A stretch of DNA of 64,000 bases from Acholoe squamosa (lineage: Eukaryota; Annelida; Polychaeta; Phyllodocida; Polynoidae), in assembly GCA_949317995.1 (NCBI GenBank), contig OX439047.1:35626950-35690949 (forward strand), written 5' to 3'. Position 1 is the stretch's first letter. Each line of letters starts with the position of its first letter. The notes beneath the pieces are model-generated. The model made no database searches. It saw only the letters and a program-made list of their open reading frames with translations, and was not told the DNA's origin. A program made the position numbers and the translations under genes. Shown here piece after piece: positions 4,408-52,765 of this stretch.

Positions 4408-4940
4408 TCTGGGGGTAGACGTATAGTGTTCTGGGTGGCAGAGTATGGTATAGGCACATGTGGGGTAAATTCACCACTTTCGGACGTTTCAAGGTGAGCC
4501 CTTTTCTTTGATTATGATATAGGAAAGTCTTTTAAGAGAGTTGGAGGAAAGGGGATGGGATGGGAAGGGGGGGGCAGGTATGCATTCATGATATGTAGCT
4601 CAAATCCTATAAAAGTACCATTATTAGTGTATTGTACTGGCCAATGATTAGAGGGAATAGGCTAAATACAGATCAAGTTTAGACAAAATGTAGGGTGGGA
4701 AACAGAAAGGAAATGTCAAGAAGGCCAGTATAAACATTTTGAGGCGCAGATCGCAGTGTCTGCTCAGCGTCTCTTCTACCACAAACACTGAGGCACTGTC
4801 ACATGATCATCTAGGACAGGTCAGAGTCTGTGGTAGACGTATAGTATTGTGGGAGCAGAGTATTGTAAGGCACATGTGGGGAAGATTCACCACTTTCGGA
4901 CGCTGAATTTCAATTTCAAGATGAGCCCTTTTCTTCGTGC
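4408..4940. repeat. Pair of ~105-bp direct repeats
   Basis: The segment at about 4408-4510 (GTCTGGGGGTAGACGTATAG ... CACCACTTTCGGACG ... GAGCCCTTTTCTT) recurs at about 4829-4937 with scattered changes. The pair is 420 bp apart in the EF-hand gene intron. No function can be read from it. Confidence 0.6.
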
Positions 4941-15166: not shown

Positions 15167-15375
15167 TGCACATGGTTTCACCTGTGTCATGATAGCTTTT
15201 AGAGCAGCAGGATGCCAATCTGATAGGGTCGGACCCGTACCTACTTTCTCATTGGTCTACCCATTAGACGCCATCAACAGAGGATGTTGGCTGGTAATCT
15301 AGACATGAAACATTTGCTTGGGCTCACTTGGCACAGGTAGTGATCTTACTCAGGAGGTAACATCACAGGGATTCC

Positions 15376-15385
15376 TTATTCTCAG
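15376..15385 (+). other. Possible 3' splice site of a 5'-untranslated intron
   Basis: TTATTCTCAG ends 60 bp upstream of the receptor ATG and would fit an acceptor for a leader exon. Many single-coding-exon receptors have such a split leader. No donor could be assigned. Confidence 0.25.
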
Positions 15386-15445
15386 GAAATCTGGAATTCA
15401 TATTTCATAACAAGCAAAATACATGGGAGTATAACTTTGAGGACA

Positions 15446-16873
15446 ATGGGAGATGCATATATAAGAAACTCTTCAAATAATACTGATATAGCTGAGAGTG
15501 AGGGGCACAGTAGGACATTGTACTATTTCATGGCCATTACACAGGACATAGTGGGGATTCTGACTATTATATTGAATATAATTCTGATTGCTGCTCTCAA
15601 ACGCCTCCATTCGAAACACATCAAGATGACCTCTCGCCTCTTCCTCTACTTTGGGGCTATAAACCATTCCTTATTGGGGCTGGTTTTGATGCTTAGGCCC
15701 TACATACCCTTTGAACATTGTGCTGCATTTGGATTATCAGTGCTATTCTTTGGTTTAATGATAGTAACAGGACTATTCCTCCTCTCTGTGGACTTATTCC
15801 TTGTCCTTCTCAGGCCTTACAAAGTACTGCTAACTCCAAGAATTGCCAGAGGTCTCATTGCATTTGTGACAATGTACTGGGGCATTCTCTGCTTGATTGC
15901 CTTTTCCTATAGATCCTCCATGGCAAGACGCTCAACCGAGTCCTGTACCATTAACAATGGCCAAGTCCCCAATAGACTTCTCATCTTTCTCATCAGCTCC
16001 TGTGGTGTTCTTATTATCTTCTCCACGGCTATGCAGCTGAGGACAGTTTGGCAACTTAAGAAGAGAGGCCAGGTGAGTGTGGCTGAAACAGCCACTACTA
16101 ATATAGCCACAACCAATGCCTCCTCAGCATCAACTATCAACCTAACGACCGACAACGCCCGCTCATTATCAACTATCAACCTGAGGACTGACAATGACTC
16201 CTCAATGTCCAAGACTGAAAATGTCCCTTCAGTGTCAGCTATCAACAAACAGACTGACAACAGACTCTCAGTGTCGACTATCAACCTTGAGAATGACAAC
16301 ATGCCCTCAGTATCGACTATCAACCTTAAAACTGACAACATCCCCTCAATGTCAACTATTAACCTAAATTCTAGCAATATTCCCTCAGAGTCAAATATCA
16401 ACCTAAAGAGCGAGAATATCCTCTCAGTGTCAAATATCAAATCAACTACAACCCGTGGCCCCACATTTGCAAACATCAACCCAAACTTCAGCGATGTCCC
16501 ATCAGTTTCAACCATCAACCTGAGCACCTCACAAGCAGCTGGAATCAGCCGGGGGAGCAGCTCAACAGAACCAACCACTAACCCTAGTGTGGCAACAAAG
16601 GCAGGAGGTCGTCAATTTAGACTCTTACTCTTGCTCACTACCTCCTGTATGTCCACCTTTGTGTGTTGGTTCCCCACAGTGTATGGTTTAATGGCTACTG
16701 CCATCAGTGATGAGCTGGGTCAGGACACCTCAGGGCTGGATTCTGTAAGGTCACACTTCACCCTACTGGTCCTATTGGATGGTGTGCTCCACCCTGGGAT
16801 TGTGATTTGGATGAGCTCTGAACTCCGCACGGCTGCTAAGGGATTGTTTTGTAAGGTACAGCAAGATGCATAG
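15446..16873 (+). CDS. Rhodopsin-like seven-helix receptor with repeat-filled third intracellular loop
   Basis: This is a single-exon frame of 475 residues starting at ATG 15446 in a good context (ACAATGG). Hydrophobic helices lie at about 33-53, 62-84, 93-120, 137-155, 177-203, 391-417 and 438-458. Class A landmarks are N44 in helix 1, C92 and C167 as the likely disulfide pair, W145 in helix 4, CWFP at 407-410 in helix 6, and P450 in helix 7. Deviations are clear: the helix 2 aspartate is H74, DRY reads DLF at 116-118, and NPxxY reads HPGIV. Residues 203-390 form a very long third intracellular loop with about eleven copies of a 13-residue unit like VPSVSTINLKTDN. Asn-linked glycosylation motifs sit near the N-terminus (N8, N11). 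The protein should be in the plasma membrane; the ligand is unknown. It resembles lineage-expanded invertebrate orphan receptors. An antisense frame across it is a shadow. Confidence 0.88.
   Translation: MGDAYIRNSSNNTDIAESEGHSRTLYYFMAITQDIVGILTIILNIILIAALKRLHSKHIKMTSRLFLYFGAINHSLLGLVLMLRPYIPFEHCAAFGLSVLFFGLMIVTGLFLLSVDLFLVLLRPYKVLLTPRIARGLIAFVTMYWGILCLIAFSYRSSMARRSTESCTINNGQVPNRLLIFLISSCGVLIIFSTAMQLRTVWQLKKRGQVSVAETATTNIATTNASSASTINLTTDNARSLSTINLRTDNDSSMSKTENVPSVSAINKQTDNRLSVSTINLENDNMPSVSTINLKTDNIPSMSTINLNSSNIPSESNINLKSENILSVSNIKSTTTRGPTFANINPNFSDVPSVSTINLSTSQAAGISRGSSSTEPTTNPSVATKAGGRQFRLLLLLTTSCMSTFVCWFPTVYGLMATAISDELGQDTSGLDSVRSHFTLLVLLDGVLHPGIVIWMSSELRTAAKGLFCKVQQDA
16107..16540 (+). repeat. 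39-bp coding minisatellite inside the receptor gene
   Basis: About eleven imperfect 39-bp units (consensus around CCCTCAGTGTCAACTATCAA) encode the Ser/Thr/Asn-rich repeats of the third intracellular loop. One unit is shortened by 12 bp. All length changes keep the reading frame, so the protein appears to be under selection at least to stay open. Confidence 0.85.
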
Positions 16874-25100: not shown

Positions 25101-28100
25101 GCCCAGCAAAGCACTTACCATCATTGCCTAGTTTACCCCTTATATTGAAATAGTGGGATGCTGCACACTCATCATATTGAGTCACAACCTAGTTTATATC
25201 TAATATTGTACAACTGAGATACTGAGATGCTAACTCGACATTACTCACTCAGCTCACTGTACCTCAAATATTTAACACCTGAGATGCTACACACTCACAT
25301 TAACTGCCTAGTTTAACTCTTATCCTAGACTAGCCGCACCCTCACCATATCAAATGCCCAGTTTGTCTCTAATATTGACCAAAATGTCAGATGCTGCAGA
25401 GATGCTGACAACTCACCGCTTTAGATAGATCCATGTGACTGCTCCTAGTATGTCGACGAGGACGAGCAGGGAGATGAAGATGAGCACCAGGTGACAGGTG
25501 TCCATGACGATCTGTCGGGCCGAGTTAATGTAGGGCACCATGGACGCACTCAGCTTGTCCTTCTGTGCTGAGAAGTCACGCCTGCAAAGGTGGAAAGGGT
25601 TAGGCTAGTATAGTGAGTTTTAGGTACTAACTTCATACAGATTTATAAATTAAGGGTATTAGTTTTCATTTTTAAGTGCATTATACCATATTATATAGAT
25701 CACCTATGCTGCCTTCTGTATGTTACTTATAGGCCTAAATGCAGTATAGATCCGACTCTTTTAACTTTGTCGAGAAATTACAAGGCTGTTTCCACCTCAT
25801 ACACCCCGGGTTTACAAAAGCAAATATCACAATAATGTAAAATCCCTAACTATGCAACATGGTATTCAAATGCTAAACAATATAACAAAACCACTAACTT
25901 CCTATAGGGCTGGGGAGTGACTGGGGGCAGTTCACAGCCATCAAACTGCAGTTTGACTGTCTTGGCTGTGGTACAGTTACATTTCTCTGCTGGGTTGAGC
26001 ATCTTCTTCCATGCACAGTACTCGGAGTCATGGAGGATATTGTTGGACCGTTGTAAATCTCTGTACATCTCCAGCATGAGCTGGTAGCGCTTTGTGCGCA
26101 CATTGATGAGCTCTTCATAGAATGGGTATTCGAACTTGTTGATACGGTACGCATTGGTCTTGATGCGGGTCTTTGCAAGACGATAGCTTGTTTCCATCGG
26201 TGCGACCTAAGTATAAAAGAAATGCACGTTGGTCTTTATTATATGGATGGTAGAAATATGGACCAAATTAAAATATTCTATGGTATTAAAGTGTGAAAAA
26301 TATCAAAGTCAAGATAATTGCTATTGTCTTTTAATATACTAATACAGAATTAGGTAGTCAACTACCAACTGGCTTCTGATTAGAATACACTTCACTTTCC
26401 AACATCTCTTTTGGTGTTTCATAACTGTTTCTTTTACCATAATCATGAATCTTATTTTGATATGAAGCTTCCTCTACTTACGAGTGTGTCAAAGTAGCCC
26501 ACTGAGGCTAGTGTTTTAACAGTGAGCAGATGAGCTGATACCCGTAACACAAGGTAGATGGCGCAGCAGGCGGTTGCTGTGGCAACCAGTTTAGGGATGA
26601 ACTCGGTTTTCATGATCTGAAATTAAGTCACAGAAAATAGGAAATTTGAAACTGCAATAAGGCAATCGGGATGGGGGAAATACTCAGAATATTGATCATT
26701 GTTATTAGATATTGCAAGCTTATTTTTACATTTCATAATGTTACTTTGTGTGAGGCCATATAAGAATGATTCCATGCAGATCATGAGATGGAGTTAGTTC
26801 AATATCTTTGTTTGTCAAAAGGAAAAAAAGAAATTTAGAGAATCTTGCACCAGCATTTTGTCCTCGATTCTTTTCTATGTTACTAAACTCTCAATTCTAT
26901 CTGTATCAACACAATAACTGCAGGAGCTGTTGTGTATAAGTAACAGAATATCTCTTTAGATTGAGATGCACACTTAACCCTTAAATACCGTATGATGCCT
27001 CCAGCTTTATGTAATGGAGGCGCAACATAATGTGTCATCATCGTCTTGGGGTTAGACTTGGGGTTCTTAGCTATACTATGTTACTTACCCTAAGGTTCAG
27101 GTCTTTGAGGAAGGTGAGGCAGCGGCCAGAGTGGGCGGGCTGGGACCGGCCTCTCTGTCCACGCTGTGGGGACCGAGAGTCACCTAGTGATAGAAAAGTC
27201 CAAATTTAGATATCTATAATCAGGGCTCCGCTGTGTGACACTGGCAACAGCAAAACACAGCATTTTTTCTTCTGTTTGTATTTGTACATGTATATATTTT
27301 CTATCTGTCTGGGATTTGCATTGTCTCTTCAATTAGTCACATATGGCTCCTAAATTTCTATAGCTATAGAAGAGTACGCCATAGTAGACCATCCTACCTG
27401 GGGTATTCGGGTACACCATAGTGGAACATCTTATGTAGTGTCTTCTTACAATTGATATAGTATGGTACATCATAGTGGACCATCTTACCTGGTGTCTTCC
27501 TACAATCTATATTATTAAGGTACACCATAGTGGACCATCTTAACTGGTGTCTTCTTACAATCTATATCATTAAAGTACACCATAGTGGACCATCTTAACT
27601 GGTGTCTTCTTACAATCTATATCATTAAAGTACACCATAGTGGACCATCTTAACTGGTGTCTTCTTACAATCTATATCATTAAGGTACACAATAGTGGAC
27701 CATCTTACCTAGTGTCTTTAAGGTACATCATATTGGACCATCTTACCTCCTGTCTTCCTACAATCTATATCATTAAGGTACACCATAGTGGACCATCTTA
27801 ACTGGTGTCTTCCTACAATCTATATCATTAAGGTACACCATAGTGGACCATCTTACCTGGTGTCTTCTTACAATCTATATCATTAAGGTACACCATAGTG
27901 GACCATCTTACCTGGTGTCTTCTTACAATCTATATCATTAAGGTACACCATAGTGGACCATCTTACCTGGTGTCTTCTTACAATCTATATCATTAAGGTA
28001 CACCATAGTGGACCATCTTACCTGGTGTCTTCTTACAATCTATATCATTAAGGTACACCATAGTGGACCATCTTAACTGGTGTCTTCCTACAATCTATAT

Positions 28101-45700: not shown

Positions 45701-47700
45701 GATGACTCTTGGATCCTGAGGAAAATCACAATTCTAAGTCGTCAGTTTTATAAACCACCCACCAGAATATTACAACAATACCCCGCTTCCCATGCTTTGT
45801 TTGTGATGTCACTCTTTGTGTAATAAGCGATTTGGGTAAGGACACTGACTGAAATGTTACGACTGCTCATAGTTTGAATTAATGTTTTAGTAGAGCAAGG
45901 GGACAATTGCTTTATTATAAAGCACCTGTAACGCCATTAAATACATTTACACAGGAGTGAAATGATTACTTCAGATAAAACAAGCACACGAAATTGCTTG
46001 CACGATTTTTCTGGAAATCAAATCTTTCTTCTTTAGCCTCACTGCACATGTAATGTATATAATATAGTTCATGATTCTGTAGTCTGGAGAGTTCTGACTT
46101 AATTTGCCAGCGAAAACAGAAAATCTGCCTAGAACCACAATTTCCCTCATACTTTCAGTATCTTTAATTAACTATCGCAGCATTTATAAAGTCAACTACA
46201 TTCATTTAGATTGAAATAGAACAGTGAAGATAGAATGAGAAACAGGAATAGTACTGCGACGTCACTTTATTATAATGGGTTGAATAATCTTTATTTGTGA
46301 GTTTATGTTCCCCTGGCCTTTGAGCCTTGAATCAATTTCTCTATACACTTACTAACCTAATCTTCAGCCCTTTGCCTCCAGTGTGAGGCTTTATGCAAAG
46401 GTTGAACAATGTGCACTGCATATGAAATCAAGTCTTTTGTACACATTTAGAAAGAAAATGGAGAATGGTGTTCAGAGTGGCACCACTCTACCGACTATAG
46501 AACATTTTGCTTTTTTGCTTTGAGTCAATTTTCCAATTTGCTGTTACAAATGACCTCCTTCTGCACAGATCATACAAATAATGGTGTTATCAAAGAATTA
46601 GAAAAAAAAACATTGTTTTAATGTACTTGAGACTTTTGAGGAGATCATCAAAGTGGAGCAAATGGAAAATGTGAGGAGAAGAAACGCTTACATTTCCTCT
46701 CAATGAGAATTCAAAGGAAACTCTTTAAAAAAACCCTCAGTAAACCAATAAGTGAAGTACCCTAATTTGTGATGATGAGCGTCTGTAACATGATTTCTGA
46801 TACAAGCTTTTGAACAAAACAAAAAAGGTAATTTGGATACTGTGGAAAACCATACCCTTTTAAAGGTCAGAAACGATTTAATATGCCACCCCCTTTTCAG
46901 GACGAGTTGCAGTAATAGGGAGAGCGGGTTTTCTCTGGTACTGGGTTGGGGCATTTATCTAACTGAATATTCTTACCTGGTATAGCACCAGGGAGAGCTG
47001 GTACATGTCTCTGGTACTGGGTACATTGGAAATATTCTAATTAAATGGTCTCACCTGATGCAGCACCAGAAAGACTTGGTATTTCGCTGGTACTGGGTAG
47101 GGGCAATATTAGGTATATGGGCAATACTCTAGTTAAATCGCCTCACCTCGCAGCACCAGAGAGCTGGTATGCATCTGGTACTGGGTACATGGGCATTACT
47201 CTAGTTAAAATGGCCTCACCTGGTGCAGCACCAGAGAGAGCTGGTATTTCTCTGGTACTGGGTGCATACACAACACTCTAGTTAAATGGTATCACCTGGT
47301 GCAGCACCAGAGAGAGCTGGTATTTCTCTGGTACTTGGTACATGCATGCACAATACTCTCAATGGTCTCACCTGGTGCAGCACTGGGTCAGAGGGAGCTG
47401 GTATGCCTCTGACACTGGGTACATGGACAATACTCAGATAGCCCCACCTGGTGCAGCACCAGAGAGCTGGTATGTCTCTGGTAATCTGTTCATGGGCAAT
47501 ACTCTAGTTAAATGGCCTCACCTGGTGCAGCACCAGAGAGAGCTGGTATTTCTCTGGTACTGGGTAGGGGCAATACTGTTGGGTGATGGTCAGGTCACCA
47601 TAGAATCCCCCGTTATCGTTGGAATCGGAGTGGTCCACGGCCTGGAAGAGCGGTGCGAGATTACTCTCCTTGAGGTTGATGGAAACAGAAAAGCCATTCC
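22012..47700 (-). CDS. Large five-helix membrane protein gene, 19 exons rebuilt, 5' end missing
   Basis: Exons on the minus strand: 47700-47522, 45367-45108, 42378-42166, 41542-41333, 39918-39722, 38806-38501, 38017-37793, 33121-32993, 32542-32392, 31286-31100, 30596-30484, 30213-30002, 29145-29019, 28519-28296, 27183-27089, 26616-26482, 26206-25899, 25581-25417, 22141-22012. Every junction has AG and GT borders and matching phase, giving 1187 residues to a stop. Residues 1-547 are a Cys-rich, glycosylation-motif-bearing ectodomain. Helices are near 548-569, 592-618, 866-886, 949-974 and 1121-1142. The loop 619-865 is helical and glutamine/glutamate-rich; the loop 975-1120 has a Cys cluster; the tail is about 43 residues. 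With the N-terminus outside, both long loops are extracellular and the basic loop 887-948 is cytoplasmic. Topology is like prominin or tweety homologues, but the long ectodomain does not fit either and I recognise no family. The signal peptide exon was not found. Confidence 0.88.
22264..22336. promoter_or_regulatory. Cluster of cAMP-response-element-like sites
   Basis: A full palindromic TGACGTCA at 22266-22273 is followed by TGACGTT and TGACGTA half-type sites within 65 bp. It sits just upstream, in gene orientation, of the last exon of the membrane protein gene, inside its intron. ATF/CREB-type factors bind such sites; function here is inference. Confidence 0.35.
24930..25416. repeat. Degenerate ~65-70-bp tandem repeat abutting a splice donor
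   Basis: Units contain GAGATGCTGCACACTCACCA followed by TGCCCAGTTTACCCCTTATA. The array begins exactly at the donor of the exon ending at 25417 (GTGAGTTGTCAGCATC on the minus strand), and further GTGAGT motifs occur at 25293-25298 and 25243-25248. Copies are much more diverged than in the arrays at 27.4-28.3 kb and 46.9-47.6 kb. Confidence 0.55.
25417..25581 (-). CDS. Membrane protein exon 18 (fifth membrane helix)
   Basis: The exon is in phase 2 on both sides, with acceptor CCTTTGCAG and donor GTGAGT. It encodes an amphipathic stretch, then helix 5 (residues about 1121-1142, rich in Leu, Ile and Val) ending in a basic stop-transfer Lys-Arg. Confidence 0.88.
25899..26206 (-). CDS. Membrane protein exon 17 (second extracellular loop)
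   Basis: This 308-bp exon encodes a charged helical segment followed by a Cys cluster including CAWKKMLNPAEKCNCTTAK, a glycosylation motif (NCT) and a further Cys. Four cysteines within about 30 residues suggest two disulfides on the extracellular side. Donor is GTTAGT. Confidence 0.9.
26482..26616 (-). CDS. Membrane protein exon 16 (fourth membrane helix)
   Basis: A 135-bp exon, phase 0 on both sides, with clean TTTCAG acceptor and GTAAGT donor. Residues about 949-974 (FIPKLVATATACCAIYLVLR) form helix 4. Confidence 0.88.
27089..27183 (-). CDS. Membrane protein exon 15 (basic cytoplasmic linker)
   Basis: This 95-bp exon encodes an Arg/Ser/Pro/Gln-rich linker between helices 3 and 4, with no acidic residues in its first half except one Asp. 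This fits the positive-inside rule for a cytoplasmic loop. Acceptor is ATCACTAG, donor GTAAGT. Confidence 0.82.
27375..28340 (-). repeat. 55-bp minisatellite made of an exon 3' end plus its splice donor
   Basis: About 18 copies of a 54-55-bp unit run from the end of the exon at 28519-28296 into its intron. On the minus strand each unit reads GGTGTACC...GATTGTAAGAAGACACCAG then GTAAGATGGTCCACTATG. That is, the last ~37 bp of coding exon joined to the first ~18 bp of intron. Donor GT is intact at 28295, 28241, 28131, 28021, 27966, 27911, 27856, 27746, 27708, 27488 and 27397. It is lost at 28186, 28076, 27801, 27653, 27598, 27543 and 27434; the first six of these have the same G-to-T change at the first intron base. 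Confidence 0.92.
28296..28519 (-). CDS. Membrane protein exon 14 (third membrane helix; 3' end is the repeat founder)
   Basis: Acceptor TTCCCCTAG, phase 2 in and phase 1 out. It encodes a charged pre-helix segment, helix 3 (residues about 866-886) and the start of a cytoplasmic loop ending VPYYIDCKKTP. The preferred donor is at 28295. Using the next copy's donor at 28241 would add exactly 54 bp in frame (18 residues); reading past that meets a stop in the third copy. Confidence 0.9.
29019..29145 (-). CDS. Membrane protein exon 13 (end of first extracellular loop)
   Basis: A 127-bp exon with a TTTTTCAG acceptor, GTAAGT donor and matching phases. It encodes a Pro/Ser-rich segment with one glycosylation motif (NLT). 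A second frame across it is longer as a raw frame but does not fit the phases of its neighbours. Confidence 0.8.
30002..30213 (-). CDS. Membrane protein exon 12 (extracellular helical loop)
   Basis: This 212-bp exon encodes an amphipathic, largely helical segment ending in Val-Glu-Arg-Leu-Ser-Val. The donor was chosen as GTGGGT at 30001 because only this gives phase 1 and keeps the next exon open; a GTAACT four bases on would shift the frame. Confidence 0.82.
30484..30596 (-). CDS. Membrane protein exon 11 (extracellular helical loop)
   Basis: A 113-bp exon, phase 0 in and phase 2 out, donor GTAAGC. It is rich in charged and aliphatic residues with one glycosylation motif (NLT), and continues the helical loop between helices 2 and 3. 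Confidence 0.82.
30679..30735. repeat. (TA)n microsatellite
   Basis: About 28 TA dinucleotides in the intron between membrane protein exons 10 and 11. Confidence 0.95.
31100..31286 (-). CDS. Membrane protein exon 10 (start of extracellular coiled-coil-like loop)
   Basis: A 187-bp exon with a good acceptor (ACAATACCAG) and donor GTAAGG. It is rich in Gln, Glu, Leu and Asn, with heptad-like spacing (KLQQLQNVLEQ), so a helical stalk is likely just outside helix 2. One glycosylation motif (NQT) is present. Confidence 0.87.
32392..32542 (-). CDS. Membrane protein exon 9 (second membrane helix)
   Basis: The exon encodes a short basic cytoplasmic turn followed by helix 2 (residues about 592-618). 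The acceptor ACATTTAAAAG has a weak pyrimidine tract, but phase and donor (GTGAGT) fit. Confidence 0.82.
32993..33121 (-). CDS. Membrane protein exon 8 (first membrane helix)
   Basis: A 129-bp exon, phase 1 on both sides, donor GTATGT. After a charged juxtamembrane stretch comes helix 1 (residues about 548-569, IIAVLCVVISFLGLLLFVGF). This marks the end of the N-terminal ectodomain. Confidence 0.88.
33180..37790. other. 4.7-kb intron of the membrane protein gene
   Basis: AT-rich sequence between exons 7 and 8. The only standout is the GC-rich promoter-like patch at 35770-35850. Short frames on either strand have no protein-like features. Confidence 0.5.
35770..35850 (+). promoter_or_regulatory. 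Promoter-like cluster: CCAAT, TCAAGGTCA, TATATA
   Basis: Within a GC-rich island in AT-rich intron lie CCAAT (35772-35776), AGGTCAAGGTCA with the extended nuclear-receptor half-site TCAAGGTCA (35805-35813), GGGTCA (35822-35827) and TATATA (35844-35849), in promoter-like order on the plus strand. No coding exon follows, so this may be an enhancer, an antisense transcript start, or chance. Confidence 0.35.
37793..38017 (-). CDS. Membrane protein exon 7 (membrane-proximal ectodomain)
   Basis: A 225-bp exon, phase 1 on both sides. The alternating beta-strand-like pattern with a Cys, and a glycosylation motif (NMT), suggest a beta-sandwich domain just outside helix 1. Confidence 0.88.
38501..38806 (-). 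CDS. Membrane protein exon 6 (ectodomain)
   Basis: A 306-bp exon with Cys residues near both ends and three glycosylation motifs (NRT, NKS, NTT). The donor is a weaker GTGTGT, but it is the only site that both keeps phase 1 and precedes the in-frame stop. Confidence 0.85.
39722..39918 (-). CDS. Membrane protein exon 5 (ectodomain)
   Basis: A 197-bp exon, acceptor CTCCTCACAG, donor GTGAGT. It is rich in Ser, Tyr, Thr and Val without cysteine. The strand-like alternation suggests beta structure. Confidence 0.87.
40600..40765. repeat. Cluster of GACGAC / GTCGTC palindromic repeats
   Basis: The motif TAGGTCGTC or its complement GACGACTTTAGG recurs in both orientations about eight times in 150 bp. 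The element is probably a decayed small foldback; no ends could be defined. Confidence 0.4.
40925..41080. mobile_element. Short inverted-repeat element, GGCCCTGGCACCG ends
   Basis: AGAGGCCCTGGCACCGTAAT at the left is matched by the complement of GTGCGGTGCCAGGGCCCC at the right, enclosing about 120 GC-rich bases. No coding. Target duplication not clear. Confidence 0.55.
41333..41542 (-). CDS. Membrane protein exon 4 (ectodomain)
   Basis: A 210-bp exon with two cysteines (residues about 218 and 240) and strand-like sequence such as YDITYTVRYKGKP. Phase 2 on both sides; donor GTGAGT. Confidence 0.88.
41830..42075 (-). repeat. Interspersed repeat related to 8400-8620, opposite orientation
   Basis: It consists of repeated CCATGTCACATGTCGATTTTAAGAAATGG-type units, with a GGGGGGTCCCCCATGTC end. 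It lies in the intron between membrane protein exons 3 and 4. Confidence 0.55.
42166..42378 (-). CDS. Membrane protein exon 3 (cysteine-rich module)
   Basis: A 213-bp exon with twelve cysteines in 70 residues, including a CFSCCGKQDC core and one glycosylation motif (NIT). The exon is a self-contained disulfide-rich module with phase 2 at both ends, so it could be skipped or duplicated without shifting the frame. I do not match it to a named domain. Confidence 0.88.
43925..44300. repeat. Degenerate tandem repeats (GGAGCATGGAGC and TACAGGATCG units)
   Basis: Two adjoining simple arrays. About 240 bp is built from ATGGAGCWCYATGGARC phrases, then about 110 bp from TACAGGGATYG phrases of about 10 bp. 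The frames through it are repeat by-products. Confidence 0.7.
45108..45367 (-). CDS. Membrane protein exon 2 (ectodomain)
   Basis: A 260-bp exon, phase 0 in and phase 2 out, donor GTGAGT. It has four cysteines and a Gly/Pro-rich middle (FGRLPGINPEGWSVLC). It is markedly GC-rich against the AT-rich introns. Confidence 0.88.
46925..47575 (-). repeat. ~76-bp minisatellite made of an exon 3' end plus its splice donor
   Basis: About eight copies start at the end of the exon 47700-47522 and run into its intron. On the minus strand each unit reads TACCCAGTACCAGAGAAATA...CTCTGGTGCTGCACCAG then GTGAGGCCATTTAACTAGAG. That is, about 50 bp of coding exon followed by the donor and about 25 bp of intron. 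Donor GT occurs at 47521 (real), 47447, 47371, 47295, 47219, 47146, 47054 and 46976; seven are GTGAG, GTGAT, GTGGG or GTGAGG type and the last is GTAAG. Spacings of 73-92 bp are mostly not multiples of three. Confidence 0.9.
47522..47700 (-). CDS. Membrane protein, first exon recovered (N-terminal ectodomain)
   Basis: A 179-bp exon, acceptor TTTTACTTTCAG, phase 1 in and phase 0 out. It encodes an Asp/Ser/Asn-rich stretch and a CPYPVPEKYQ segment. Because it opens mid-codon and has no signal peptide, at least one exon lies further right; I could not identify it. Confidence 0.85.
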
Positions 47701-48479
47701 CTGAAAGTAAAACAAAATTGCATTGATTCGCTGGCATTCATATGGATATTTGATTTCCACATGATTTGTATATAATTATTATCGATACATAAGTTCCATG
47801 CTTTTGAACTTTTTGGCATTGTATTTCACACTTGTGACATAAGCCTTCCAATAAGTTGAGATCCTGAAAACATGCATAATTATGATGAATTACCTATGCA
47901 AGATAGAAATGGGAGTTTCAACCATTGTGCCCATAATAACATGAACTGTATAGAGAGTTTCAGCTATTCTCCTATGACAAATGACACTGCTTTATGTTTT
48001 CAGTTTCTTTCATTTGTGAAAAAGATAAGGGCGTATCAATGTCGGTGATGGTGATTGGATACTTGAAAGGCAGGACAGCGTGGCGTATAATGTCTATAAA
48101 ATGGTTAAGGCTAGGGCACAGCCCTAAGATACCTATGGTCAACTGTGTTCTATGTGCTATGCTAAACTATGCTATAACTAAATGCTGACAAATAGTGGGT
48201 AATTACTGACATATATTGACTAATTGCTGAGAAATGTTGACAAGATACTGACAAGATGGAGCAGGTTAGGTCTAAGACCTAAAAGACCCGAGTTTTTAAT
48301 GCAATTTCCAATGCTATTTTCAATTCAATTTTCAATATTAAATCAGATATTGACAAATAGTGAGTGATTACTGACATATGTTGATGAACTGCTGACCAAT
48401 AATGAGCAATTACTAACATACATTGACTAATTGCTGACAAATAGTGCATTATTACTGACATATTTGCTGACAATGCATC

Positions 48480-49523
48480 ATGACATCCATAAAAGGGTTA
48501 ACTGCACATCAATGCCTTGTCTATCAATAAAGGGTTGACTGTGCATCAATGCATTATGCTATCCCTAAGGGGTTAACTGTGTATCAATGCATCATGCCAT
48601 CCATAAAGGGTTAAGTGCATCAATGCATCAGGTTATCCATGAAGGGTTAAATGTGCATCAATGCATCATGCCATTCATAAAGGGTTAACTGTGTATCAAT
48701 GCATCATGCTACCCATAAAGGGTTAAAGTGCATCAATGCATCATGCCATTCATAAAGGGTTAAAGTGCATCGATGCATCATGTTATCCATGAAGGGTTAA
48801 ATGTGCATCAATGCTTTGCAACATCCATAAAGGGTTAACTGTGCATCAATGCATCATGCTATCCATAAAGGGTTAACTGTGCATCAATGTTACATGCCAT
48901 TCATAAAGGCTTAAAGTGAATCAATGCATCATGCCATTCATAAAGGGTTAAATGTGCATCAATGCATCATGCTATCCATAAAGGGTTAACTGTGCATCAA
49001 TGCATCATGCTATCCATAAAGGGTTAACTGTGCATCAATGCATCATGCTATCCATAAAGGTTTAATTGGGCATCAATGCTACATGCCATTCAAAAAGGCT
49101 TAAAGTGAATCAATGCATCATGCCATTCATAAAGGGTTAAAGTGAATCAATGCATTATGCCATTCATAAAGGGTTAAATGTGCATCAATGCATCATGCTA
49201 TCCATAAAGGGTTAACTGTGCATCAATGCATCATGCTATCCATAAAGGGTTAATTATGCATCAATGCATCATGCCATTCATAAAGGCTTAAATGTGCATT
49301 AATGCATCATGCCATTCATAAAGGGTTAACTGTGCATCAATGCATCATGCCATTCATAAAGGGTTAAATGTGCATCAATGCATCATGCCATTTATTAAGG
49401 GTTAAATGTGCATCAATGCATCATGCTATCCATAAAGGGTTAACTGTGCATCAATGCATCATGTTATCCATAAAGGGTTAACTGTACATCAATGCATCAT
49501 GCTATCCATAAAGGGTTAACTGT
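48480..49523. repeat. 38-bp tandem repeat (CATCAATGCATCATGC...CATAAAGGGTTAA)
   Basis: About 27 copies of a unit close to GTGCATCAATGCATCATGCY plus ATCCATAAAGGGTTAACT. Two subtypes alternate (CTATCCATAAAGG and CCATTCATAAAGG), suggesting earlier two-unit amplification. More copies lie at 49717-49860, beyond a SINE-like insertion, and at 52540-52765. Confidence 0.92.
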
Positions 49524-49730
49524 GCATTAATGCTACAGTGAGTGAGTAATAGATGTTTAACGCCATTTCGACAGCTAAGGTCATATTCATGGCGAGAACT
49601 ACATTATACAATTTCACAGGGGAATGTGTCAGTGCCCGCGCATATGTGCACCACACACATCCTGAGGGGATAGGAAAGAGAAGAAATAGACCCTTTTAAG
49701 TGGGCTAGGGAGGCCCGCATTAATGCTACA
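49524..49730 (+). mobile_element. SINE-like element copy 1, 14-bp target duplication
   Basis: The element spans 49538-49716 (179 bp), starting GTGAGTGAGTAATAGATGTT and ending GTGGGCTAGGGAGGCCC. The sequence GCATTAATGCTACA is directly repeated at 49524-49537 and 49717-49730. It landed inside the 38-bp tandem array. The duplication length fits LINE-type reverse transcription. No tRNA-type A and B boxes are evident. Confidence 0.85.
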
Positions 49731-50724
49731 TGCCATTCATAAAGGCTAAAGTGAATCGATGCATCATGCCATTCATAAAGGGTTTAATGTGCATCAATGC
49801 ATCATGCTATCCATAAAGGGTTAACTGTGCATCAATGCATCATGCTATCCAAAATGTTTAAGGTTAGGGCAAAGCCCTATTTTATAGTGGCTTCCATGTT
49901 CAAAGAACTATAGTCTATACAAAATTATCATACTAAGTGATGCTATAGTGACAAAGTATATTGACTAATCACTGACTCCAAGTATTTATACACCATATTG
50001 GAATATGAGGGAGGTGATATACAAAGCTTTTGTTTTCTATAAGACAAATCACAGCTTCCCATAGCTCAGCCCCCCCCCCCCACAGCTCACTTTCCTAAAT
50101 CATACTGTCTATTGAGGTCCAATAAATCATCATGTTGCCTGTAAAAGGTCATTAAATGGCAAAGCTAATAAAACATCATGCTGCCTGTACAGGGTCATTG
50201 TATGGTATAACCAATGAACCATCATGTTGCCCTTAATGGGCTATTGTATGGTATAACCAATAGACTACCATGTTGCCTGTAAGGGGTTATGATATTGCAA
50301 AACGAATAAAACATCATGTTGCCTGTAGAGGGTTATTGTACGATGAATTTAATAAACCATCATGTTGCCCATAAAGGGGGTTATTGTATGGTGTGTTTAA
50401 TAAAACATCATGTTGTTTATAAAGGGTTATTGTATGGTATAATCAATAGAATATAATGTTGCCTATGAAGGGTTATTGTGTATGGTATAACTAATAAAAC
50501 ACCATGTTGTCTGTAAAGGTTTGTTTAGTTTGATTAATGAAACATCAGGCTGTCTATGTATATAAAGGTTTGTTTAATTGAACAATACATAGTGTTGCAG
50601 AGGGTTATTGTGTGCTGATAAAACATCATATTGCCTGTAGAGGGTTATTTTATCATAAAACTAATAAAAAAGCATGCTGCCTCTAAAGGGTTATTGTATG
50701 TTATAACCAATAAATCATTATGTT

Positions 50725-50925
50725 TCCTGTAGGGGTCGGGCTTCCCTAGCCCACTTAAAAGGGTCTACTTCTCATCTTCCTATCCCCTCAGGATGTGTGT
50801 GGTGCACATATGCGCGGGCACTGACACATTCCTGTGAAATTGTGTAATGTCGTTCTCGCCATGAATATGACCTTAGCTGTCGAAATGGCGTTAAACATCT
50901 ATTACTCACTCACTCCTGTAGGGGT
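50725..50925 (-). mobile_element. SINE-like element copy 2, 12-bp target duplication
   Basis: Same family as at 49538-49716, reversed, occupying 50737-50913. TCCTGTAGGGGT is repeated on both sides (50725-50736 and 50914-50925). It sits inside the ~55-bp tandem array. Confidence 0.85.
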
Positions 50926-51536
50926 TATTGTATGGTATAGCTAATAATCATAGAACATCATGTTGCCTCTATATGGTTATTATAAGATGAATCTAATAAA
51001 CCATCATGTTGCCAATAAAGGGATATTGTATGGTATAACCAATAGAATACCATGTTGCATGTAAGGGGTTATAATATGGCAAAACGAATAAAACATGTTG
51101 CCTGTACAGGGTCATTCTAAGATGAATCTAATAAACCATCCTGTTGCATATAAAGGGTTATTGTGTGGTATAACCAATAGAAGACCATGTTGCCTGTAAG
51201 GGGTTTTGATATGACAAAACAAATAAAACATCATGTTGCCTATAGAGGGTTATTGTGAGATGAATCTAATAATCCATCATGTTGCCCATAAAGGATTATT
51301 GTATGGTGTGATTAATAAAACATCATGTTGCTTTTAAAGGGTTATTGTACGTACATCTGTATAATCAATAAAATATCATGTTGCCTATAAAGGGTTATTG
51401 TATGGTACAATCCATAGAATATGTTGCCTGTAAGGCGTTGTGGTAAGGCATGATCAATAAACCACCATGTTGCCTATGAAGGGTTATTGTATGGTATAAC
51501 TAATAAAACACCATGTTGTCTGTAAAGGTTTGCTTA

Positions 51537-51808
51537 CCATAATCTCCCGCATATATGGTGCGTCTTATACGGAGGGTTTTAGTTCTCATTGCATCCACAA
51601 GGGGGTCTCCAAGACCTTTCTTTTGATATGTTACATGCCCCCTTAGCCATAATAGGATATATGGGGGCCCAGGGGGGTCCATGGGGCCCAAGTTACACGT
51701 AGGTCTTTAAATTTTGAAAATTCATTAAGTAGAACCAAAGTTATGAATTTTTCAAAACTCTAGGTGTGCCTTATACGTGGGCTGCACCTTATACGCGGGG
51801 GATTATGG
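51537..51808. mobile_element. 272-bp TA-flanked inverted-repeat element with paralogous empty site
   Basis: The ends CCATAATCTCCCGCATATAT and the complement of GCGGGGGATTATGG are inverted repeats; TA lies on both sides (51535-51536, 51809-51810). The neighbouring array copy at 50519-50540 carries the uninterrupted target (GGTTTGTTTAGTTTGATTAA), confirming both ends. Ends of the CGTATAAGG type recall pogo-like elements, but no transposase is present. Confidence 0.85.
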
Positions 51809-52539
51809 TAGTTTGATTAATGAAACATCAGGCTGCCTATGTACATAAAGCTTTATTGTTTAACTGATGACACATAATGTTGCATGCAGAGGGTTATTAT
51901 GAGCTACACTACTGGTAGTACTACATGTATATGCTATATGTGCAGGGTTGCACTCATGCATCATACCATCTGCCCTAGGAGAGAGAAAACAATTACACCA
52001 GGCTTTTCACTGATTTTGTCAATGGCTAGACCTTGGATATTGATAGTGGGGTGCTAGTGCCTACAGCTAATTCATATTAGGTGTAGGCCTGCCCAGAGAG
52101 TGATTGTGGCCATAATAGGCATTAGGGAAGGTGTGTGTGTGTGGGGGGGGGTACATACAGGTGTGGTGGTTTGACCAAGCTGTCAAAGGGAGTGACAGGA
52201 CCTCTGTGCCTATCTCCAAGCATTCACATAGCATATTGGAATACTATGGCAATTTTGGATATAGTCTATACCAGGAGCTTGAGTCATAACTCAAGACACC
52301 AAGTCTCCAAGCTGAAACACACCATATTGGAACATGGGATGAGTTTAGTACAAAGCCTCTGCTTACTATAGAACAAAGCAGAATTGACCACAGCTAATCC
52401 CCACCAGTTCACTCTCCTACATTATGTTGTGTATTGATTTAACAAGGGTGAGTTACAGACCAAGCCTATACATGGATTATTTTCTGTGGCTACTTTCGAT
52501 GGTAGATAGATGTAATTAAGGTAGTGGCTAGCCACTACC

Positions 52540-52765
52540 TTAATAAAGGGTTAATTGTGCATCAATGCATCATGCTATCCATAAAGGGTTAACTGTGCAT
52601 CAATGCTACATGCCATTCATAAAGGCTTAAAGTGAATCAATGCATCATGCCATTCATAAAGGGTTAAATGTGCATCAATGCATCATGCCATTCATAAAGG
52701 GTTAACTGTGTATCAATGCATCATGCCATCCATAAAGGGTTAAAGTGCATCAATGCATCATAGGG
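52540..52765. repeat. Further copies of the 38-bp CATCAATGCATCATGC repeat
   Basis: About six units identical in type to those at 48480-49523, separated from them by the ~55-bp array. Probably one array split by later expansion or rearrangement. Confidence 0.85.

Follow-up and report, generated by a model that had tools for sequence, protein, structure and literature searches.

Tandem arrays of an exon end and its splice donor at two exons of one Acholoe squamosa gene, and a similar layout in other genes

The gene on the minus strand and the array at exon E1

The window analysed here is a stretch of 64,000 nucleotides (nt) of DNA of the polynoid annelid Acholoe squamosa (C13:35626950-35690949 of a 1.48-Gb genome in 63 contigs). 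It contains a minus-strand gene in which two exons, E1 and E14, run at their 3' ends into tandem arrays, array 2 and array 1 respectively, whose units join the coding end of the exon to its splice donor (Table 1). In the exon model, the gene presents 18 exons, from E1 (47700-47522) to E18 (25581-25417), which join in frame and free of stops into 1144 residues. This model matched no Pfam family above the cut-off (best expectation value, E, 0.08), a search with its N-terminal 624 residues found no solved-structure relative, and its second half exhibits several membrane spans by eye. The join of E17 (25902-26206, minus strand) to E18 is in frame only through a GA donor, CCCTATAG|GAAGTT, which is a non-canonical splice site or else an error of assembly or model.

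Tandem Repeats Finder reported array 2 at 47112-47566 (period 76, 6.1 copies, score 498), with a further call at 47020-47187 (period 92). Alignment of the exon-end unit to the region resolved it into the exon copy, seven donor-bearing copies and a partial ninth. The unit starts at 47577, inside E1 (AGTATTGCCC), and its about 76 bp comprise 56 coding nt and 18 intron nt. With head-to-tail copies of a unit between 10 and 100 bp, array 2 is a minisatellite. The initial annotation had described such an exon-plus-donor array at 46925..47575, and both methods bore it out; the array is located there, but the partial ninth copy extends it to 46908 and the unit start to 47577. The donor GTGAGG, which had been ascribed to each copy, is present in only 3 of the 8, the others being GTGGGG, GTGAGA (twice), GTGATA and GTAAGA, although GT itself is kept in all eight. 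Five of these eight donors, donor 1 included, matched CAG|GTRAGT at 8 of 9 positions.

Table 1. Exons, arrays and array copies discussed in the text (window positions)
Feature	Start	End	Strand	Description	Basis
Exon E1	47522	47700	-	179 nt, GNGFSVSINLKESNLAPLFQ...PVPEKYQLSLVLHQ; acceptor TTTCAG, donor CAG|GTGAGG	in-frame 18-exon model; paralogue exon with same ends
Exon E2	45108	45367	-	phase 0 join to E1 (LHQ|GVTTR)	model; matching exon in paralogue
Exon E14	28296	28519	-	same gene; ends in array 1	18-exon model
Array 1	27410	28347	-	at E14, 55-bp unit	
Array 2, copy 1	47504	47577	-	last 56 nt of E1 and 18 nt of intron; donor after 47522	
Array 2, copy 2	47435	47503	-	donor CAG|GTGGGG after 47448; 2-nt deletion	
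Array 2, copy 3	47358	47434	-	donor CAG|GTGAGA after 47372; 5-nt insertion	
Array 2, copy 4	47278	47357	-	donor CAG|GTGATA after 47296	
Array 2, copy 5	47201	47277	-	donor CAG|GTGAGG after 47220; best blastn match (97%) to the exon-copy query among intron copies	
Array 2, copy 6	47129	47200	-	donor GAG|GTGAGG after 47147	
Array 2, copy 7	47037	47128	-	donor CAG|GTGAGA after 47055; longer, extra exon-type unit start (ATTGCCCCTACCC)	
Array 2, copy 8	46959	47036	-	donor CAG|GTAAGA after 46977; 2-nt insertion	
Array 2, copy 9, partial	46908	46958	-	without donor	

The copies lying in the intron of E1 bear no mark of coding use. Compared with the exon copy, their mismatches are spread evenly over codon positions 1, 2 and 3 (12/122, 14/129 and 17/130), several of them are put out of frame by insertions or deletions of 2 to 5 nt, and read-through past donor 1 ends after another five codons at a stop (residue 64), which is the same for all seven downstream donors. 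Coding use was therefore rejected and the intronic copies are considered non-coding. The mean pairwise identity among copies is 0.84 in the exon part and 0.70 in the intron part, a difference from which nothing was concluded because the intron part has only 18 columns with several gaps. Over the eight copies 29 of 74 columns are invariant, AG|GT included, and longer invariant runs of 6 and 8 columns are also present; fully invariant five-column windows number 6 of 70.

A paralogue of the gene, at C18:38935256, presents stretches matching E1, E2, E4, E5, E6 and E7 in succession; E3 and E8-E18 had no match within the 50 kb examined there. The exon corresponding to E1 has equal length and ends, the same phase and 41 of 59 identical residues, and mismatches over the 59 codons fall mostly at third positions (11/6/22 at positions 1/2/3). 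It is followed by the donor GTAAGG, an array-free intron and then the exon matching E2, the reading from E1 into E2 being conserved between gene and paralogue. Because the paralogue keeps the same exon, phase and donor, the end of E1 at 47522, as proposed in the initial annotation and as given by the in-frame model, is very likely real. The intron after E1 is independent of the array, since an array-free intron interrupts the paralogue at the same site and in the same phase. On these two loci, gain of the array is the simpler view of the ancestry.

The array at E14 and arrayed exon ends in other genes

In array 1, a pattern allowing GT or TT located 17 donor-like positions, the last of which (27398) falls just beyond the array bounds; 11 have GT and 6 have TT. 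Donor 2 is in frame and would add 54 nt (18 residues), and the later donors lie behind a stop. The 55-bp and 76-bp units are dissimilar, their local alignment score being reached by 49 of 500 shuffles, which agrees with the earlier proposal of unrelated units and a second event in the same gene. Introner-type mobile introns occur as alike copies in many unrelated genes. No such distribution was found for either array: in a whole-genome DNA search, which passes over simple repeats and very common words, array 2 matched only itself and the exon end of the paralogue, and array 1 only its own locus.

The layout is not a one-off of this gene. Ten loci, chosen by an arrayed donor motif, were examined among 20 listed, and at three of them (L025, L028 and L034) the repeat finder placed the array over an exon end. 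An exon of WDR26 (E 4e-24 to a solved protein) ends in 9.2 copies of a 79 bp unit. The exon of a BK-beta-like gene, whose identity rests on a Pfam CaKB match below the cut-off (E 8e-4), ends in a 67 bp unit with three donors. In a DOCK gene two exons are concerned, this second gene with two exon-end arrays having been met unsought: exon a (L025:1273-1503, E 2.5e-21) ends in a 21-bp unit, open and in frame, so that each extra donor would add the seven residues VRVNIKQ, and exon b (E 3e-18 to DOCK2) ends in a different unit of 67 bp. By eye, exon b is the sole array bearer among five neighbouring exons at the DOCK and WDR26 loci. When the first donor is read through, a stop soon follows in WDR26, in the BK-beta-like gene and in DOCK exon b. 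At a fourth locus, L029, an open exon for which no known relatives were found has an end that resembles the 41-bp unit by eye only, as a diverged first copy, the array beginning 44 nt into the intron according to the repeat finder. The number of coding nt per unit is about 9 at L028 (the BK-beta-like unit) and about 5 at L029. L026 holds a 26-residue open stretch with no significant match, whose exon status is uncertain, and no convincing exon was seen at L022 and L044.

An array of the same kind was found where no donor is involved. At C17:3136708-3137048 (L115) the stop codon of a P450 gene, read by eye, and its surrounding bases are repeated in 13.9 copies of a 20 bp unit. The periods of the boundary arrays are mostly not multiples of three (20, 55, 67, 67, 76 and 79), the 21-bp DOCK unit being the exception, while an array internal to coding sequence, at 16211-16440 of the window, has a 39-bp period, a multiple of three, with 5.9 copies. 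In E14 and WDR26 the unit starts, by eye, at an exon AAG that follows the donor GT directly in the next copy, so the donor GT|AAG there is the repeat junction itself.

Possible origins: random minisatellites, duplication hotspots or selection for multiple donors

The exon-end arrays are probably best explained as random minisatellites filtered by selection. Array 2 would have originated by tandem duplication across the 3' border of E1 in an existing gene, with slippage or unequal exchange adding more copies later. The exon still ends in the first copy, with donor 1 as the donor presumably used, and the remaining copies are intronic and would drift as non-coding DNA. Since normal mRNA can still be made from the 5'-most donor, an array across the downstream border of a coding stretch, be it a donor or a stop codon, would do little harm and could survive; duplications leaving the upstream coding copy and the first donor or stop intact would in general persist and grow. 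Much of the sampled genome DNA is rich in tandem arrays, so donors and stops would be caught now and then, and two arrays in one 18-exon gene would be expected somewhere in a large genome. Arrays would then arise regardless of donors. The arrayed stop codon argues against AG|GT being required, and the seeding at AG|GT junctions suggested in the initial annotation also disagrees with first copies that start elsewhere in the exon.

The frequency of spanned exon ends was assessed on 60 kinase matches from 141, with both flanks (long single-exon and contig-end copies excluded), and on the 3' ends of 12 of 101 P450 matches, three of them terminal exons. Arrays with a period of at least 20 span 1 of the 72 3' ends, the L115 stop codon, and 0 of the 60 5' ends; about 1.0 and 0.8 were expected from the first-copy density of the flanks, where the units of 11 arrays sum to 576 of 41,564 bases. 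Donor-like sites were located close to 63 of the 72 3' ends, and acceptor-like ones close to 51 of the 60 5' ends; the remaining ends may be internal to or at the end of the coding sequence. None of the 63 donor-bearing ends is spanned. The array at L119, which begins about 39 nt into the intron, was not counted as spanning. The sample thus has neither an excess nor a lack of spanned ends, and a few-fold excess at donors is still compatible with its size. Total coverage (5.0%; 3.6 and 3.0 expected) would suggest a depletion at exon ends (P 0.01), but first-copy density was used in its place, since an array can lie across an exon end only with its first copy. Arrays cover 9.2% of the introns of the gene, as compared with those 5.0% of the sampled flanks. 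A 316-residue kinase-like open frame recurs near many contig ends (for example C11:55606, C7:588 and C13:71184769), as if subtelomeric.

Several points weigh against the random-minisatellite reading. With the seven arrays of the gene scattered at random over tolerated positions, at least two of them hit donors in 3.4% of the trials; in 0.5%, a donor was hit by each of the two arrays that have at least five copies. These P values are post hoc, since the gene was picked for its arrays, and were calculated with the unit of array 1 set generously at 165 bp. A 3.1-kb DOCK locus has four exon-like stretches, of which two were recognised by search and the others by eye; 2 of the 4 end in arrays, and read-through of DOCK exon a stays open. 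Genome-wide, triples of the donor motif CAGGTRAG amount to 3.70% of its single occurrences, compared with 0.99-1.20% when three other motifs served as controls. With 0 of 63 ends spanned, the small exon sample allows any rate under about 4-5% (4.2% computed for 69), and coverage is uneven, amounting to 1.3% over the 50 kb round the paralogue but 3.3% over the next 19 kb on C13. As to whether donors attract arrays, the sample has to be set against the within-gene placement and the DOCK pair, which hint at clustering. The claim that two cases in one gene are not due to chance is favoured by the post hoc within-gene P values, but not by the exon sample.

A mutational hotspot is a possible but distinctly less probable explanation. 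Exon 3' ends would then be favoured starting points of tandem duplications, so that several could accumulate in one gene, for example because splicing is co-transcriptional, because RNA-DNA hybrids form or because the donor AAG shares microhomology with exon sequence. The two arrays in the E1/E14 gene (P 0.005-0.034), the two in one DOCK gene, the coincidence by eye of the GT|AAG donor with the repeat junction in E14 and WDR26, and the exon ends at three of ten donor-motif loci, with the fourth by eye, are all in line with it. Donor-motif arrays also outnumber the controls: triples with a spacing of 45-75 occur at 4,491 places for CAGGTRAG and at 729 for the backward motif, and relative to singles they reach 3.70% for the former, 0.99% for the latter, 1.20% for a same-composition motif with GT changed to TG and 1.10% for its backward form, counts that are weighted heavily by large arrays. 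Among the first 100 places listed for each motif, those on contig C1 were sorted by eye: the donor motif had 16 loci that fell into 13 families, the backward motif also 16 loci but only 4 families, and CAGTGRAG 9 loci in 9 families. This excess of families (13 versus 9 and 4) is modest, and the exon-end cases alone could fill it. Moreover, choosing loci by a donor motif favours exon ends, the exon sample is without excess, the units of L028 and L029 hold just a few coding nt, and neither the stop-codon array nor the differing first-copy starts point to AG|GT. TGGACRAG gave 346 triples and its backward form 903, which is no normalised control as singles were uncounted; for acceptor arrays, with singles likewise uncounted, TTTTNCAGG gave 188 triples and the backward control 135, with no clear excess. 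A more specific proposal is that splicing itself, by co-transcriptional structure at the donor or by the AAG microhomology, turns the 3' ends of exons in transcribed genes into preferred birthplaces of arrays, several of which, with identical competing donors, may gather in one gene. It draws on the clustering in two genes and on the junction form in E14 and WDR26, and appears to us a little more doubtful still.

Selection for many donors was the other explanation put forward initially, and we find it improbable. The copies would be kept because they let the choice of splice site be graded or regulated, in part through transcripts that contain a stop and undergo degradation. GT is retained in every copy of array 2, 4 of its 7 downstream donors equal donor 1 in their match to the consensus (8 of 9 positions), and the in-frame unit of DOCK exon a, with seven more residues per donor, and the in-frame donor 2 of E14 would suit such a choice. 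Nevertheless, all downstream donors of array 2 lead to the stop at residue 64, an argument against any advantage of extra donors there. The donor columns are just one of several invariant runs, some of them longer, array 1 has TT for GT at 6 of 17 donor positions, and the paralogue manages without an array. It is very unlikely that tandem duplication created or lengthened an intron in the form of this array, or that the copies are alternative exons; duplicated segments bearing AG|GT can create introns, according to two reports (PMC4974935, PMC3629103), but the paralogue has an array-free intron in the same phase and the copies are out of frame. An assembly artefact is equally improbable, considering that the copies differ from each other in both the exon and the intron part and that independent cases occur in other genes. 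The reading as random minisatellites filtered by selection is the one we retain.

Related systems and neighbouring repeats

Tandem duplication of border segments is described as a seldom proven route to new introns (PMC4974935, PMC3629103). The potato RdRp case of PMC4974935 resembles array 2 in that a short tandem duplication carrying or crossing a splice site multiplies the splice signal while the peptide can stay unchanged. It differs in that here the array-free paralogue also has the intron, the donor-side border is duplicated and the copies number 8 to about 17. Known introns made of tandem repeats that resemble the neighbouring exon and have proto-splice sites are also related, but they are new introns and use AGGC sites; here the donors are GT, an array-free relative has the same intron and the unit includes intron sequence. 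Intronic minisatellites are known as well, among them repeats and exon-4 copies in earthworm metallothionein genes, the exon-4 copies being absent from the transcript (PMC12783039). Both systems have intronic tandem repeats, with exon copies excluded from the mRNA in the earthworm, but array 2 has its start within a coding exon, the donor of which it repeats.

No description of exon-end-plus-donor minisatellites was found in searches of an open-access library, which is not proof of their absence, and no such case was found in the portions available of PMC2883569 and PMC2809761. Multiplication of the donor of an intron shared with an array-free relative, in several genes of one genome, is in this sense apparently undescribed. 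In this one animal genome, several exons run on into an intron that starts with tens to hundreds of bases of exon-end-plus-donor copies. Such arrays are ready-made tests of the splicing choice among equal donors in a row, and of a possible fragility of exon ends towards duplication.

Other repeats were observed in the window and elsewhere in the genome. Just upstream of E1, window positions 48471-52761 hold several arrays with 38-bp and 46-bp units that share a common AAAGGGTTA core. The coding-internal 39-bp repeat sits in a single open frame of 509 residues on the plus strand (15344-16873), which has by eye the look of a seven-span receptor. Finally, L024, L027 and L041 belong to one dispersed tandem family, seen by eye also at C1:114171823 and C2:4326396. 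Its unit of about 70 bp contains CAG|GTGAG, CTAACA, a pyrimidine tract and a CAG that abuts the next GTGAG, and resembles a complete tiny intron.

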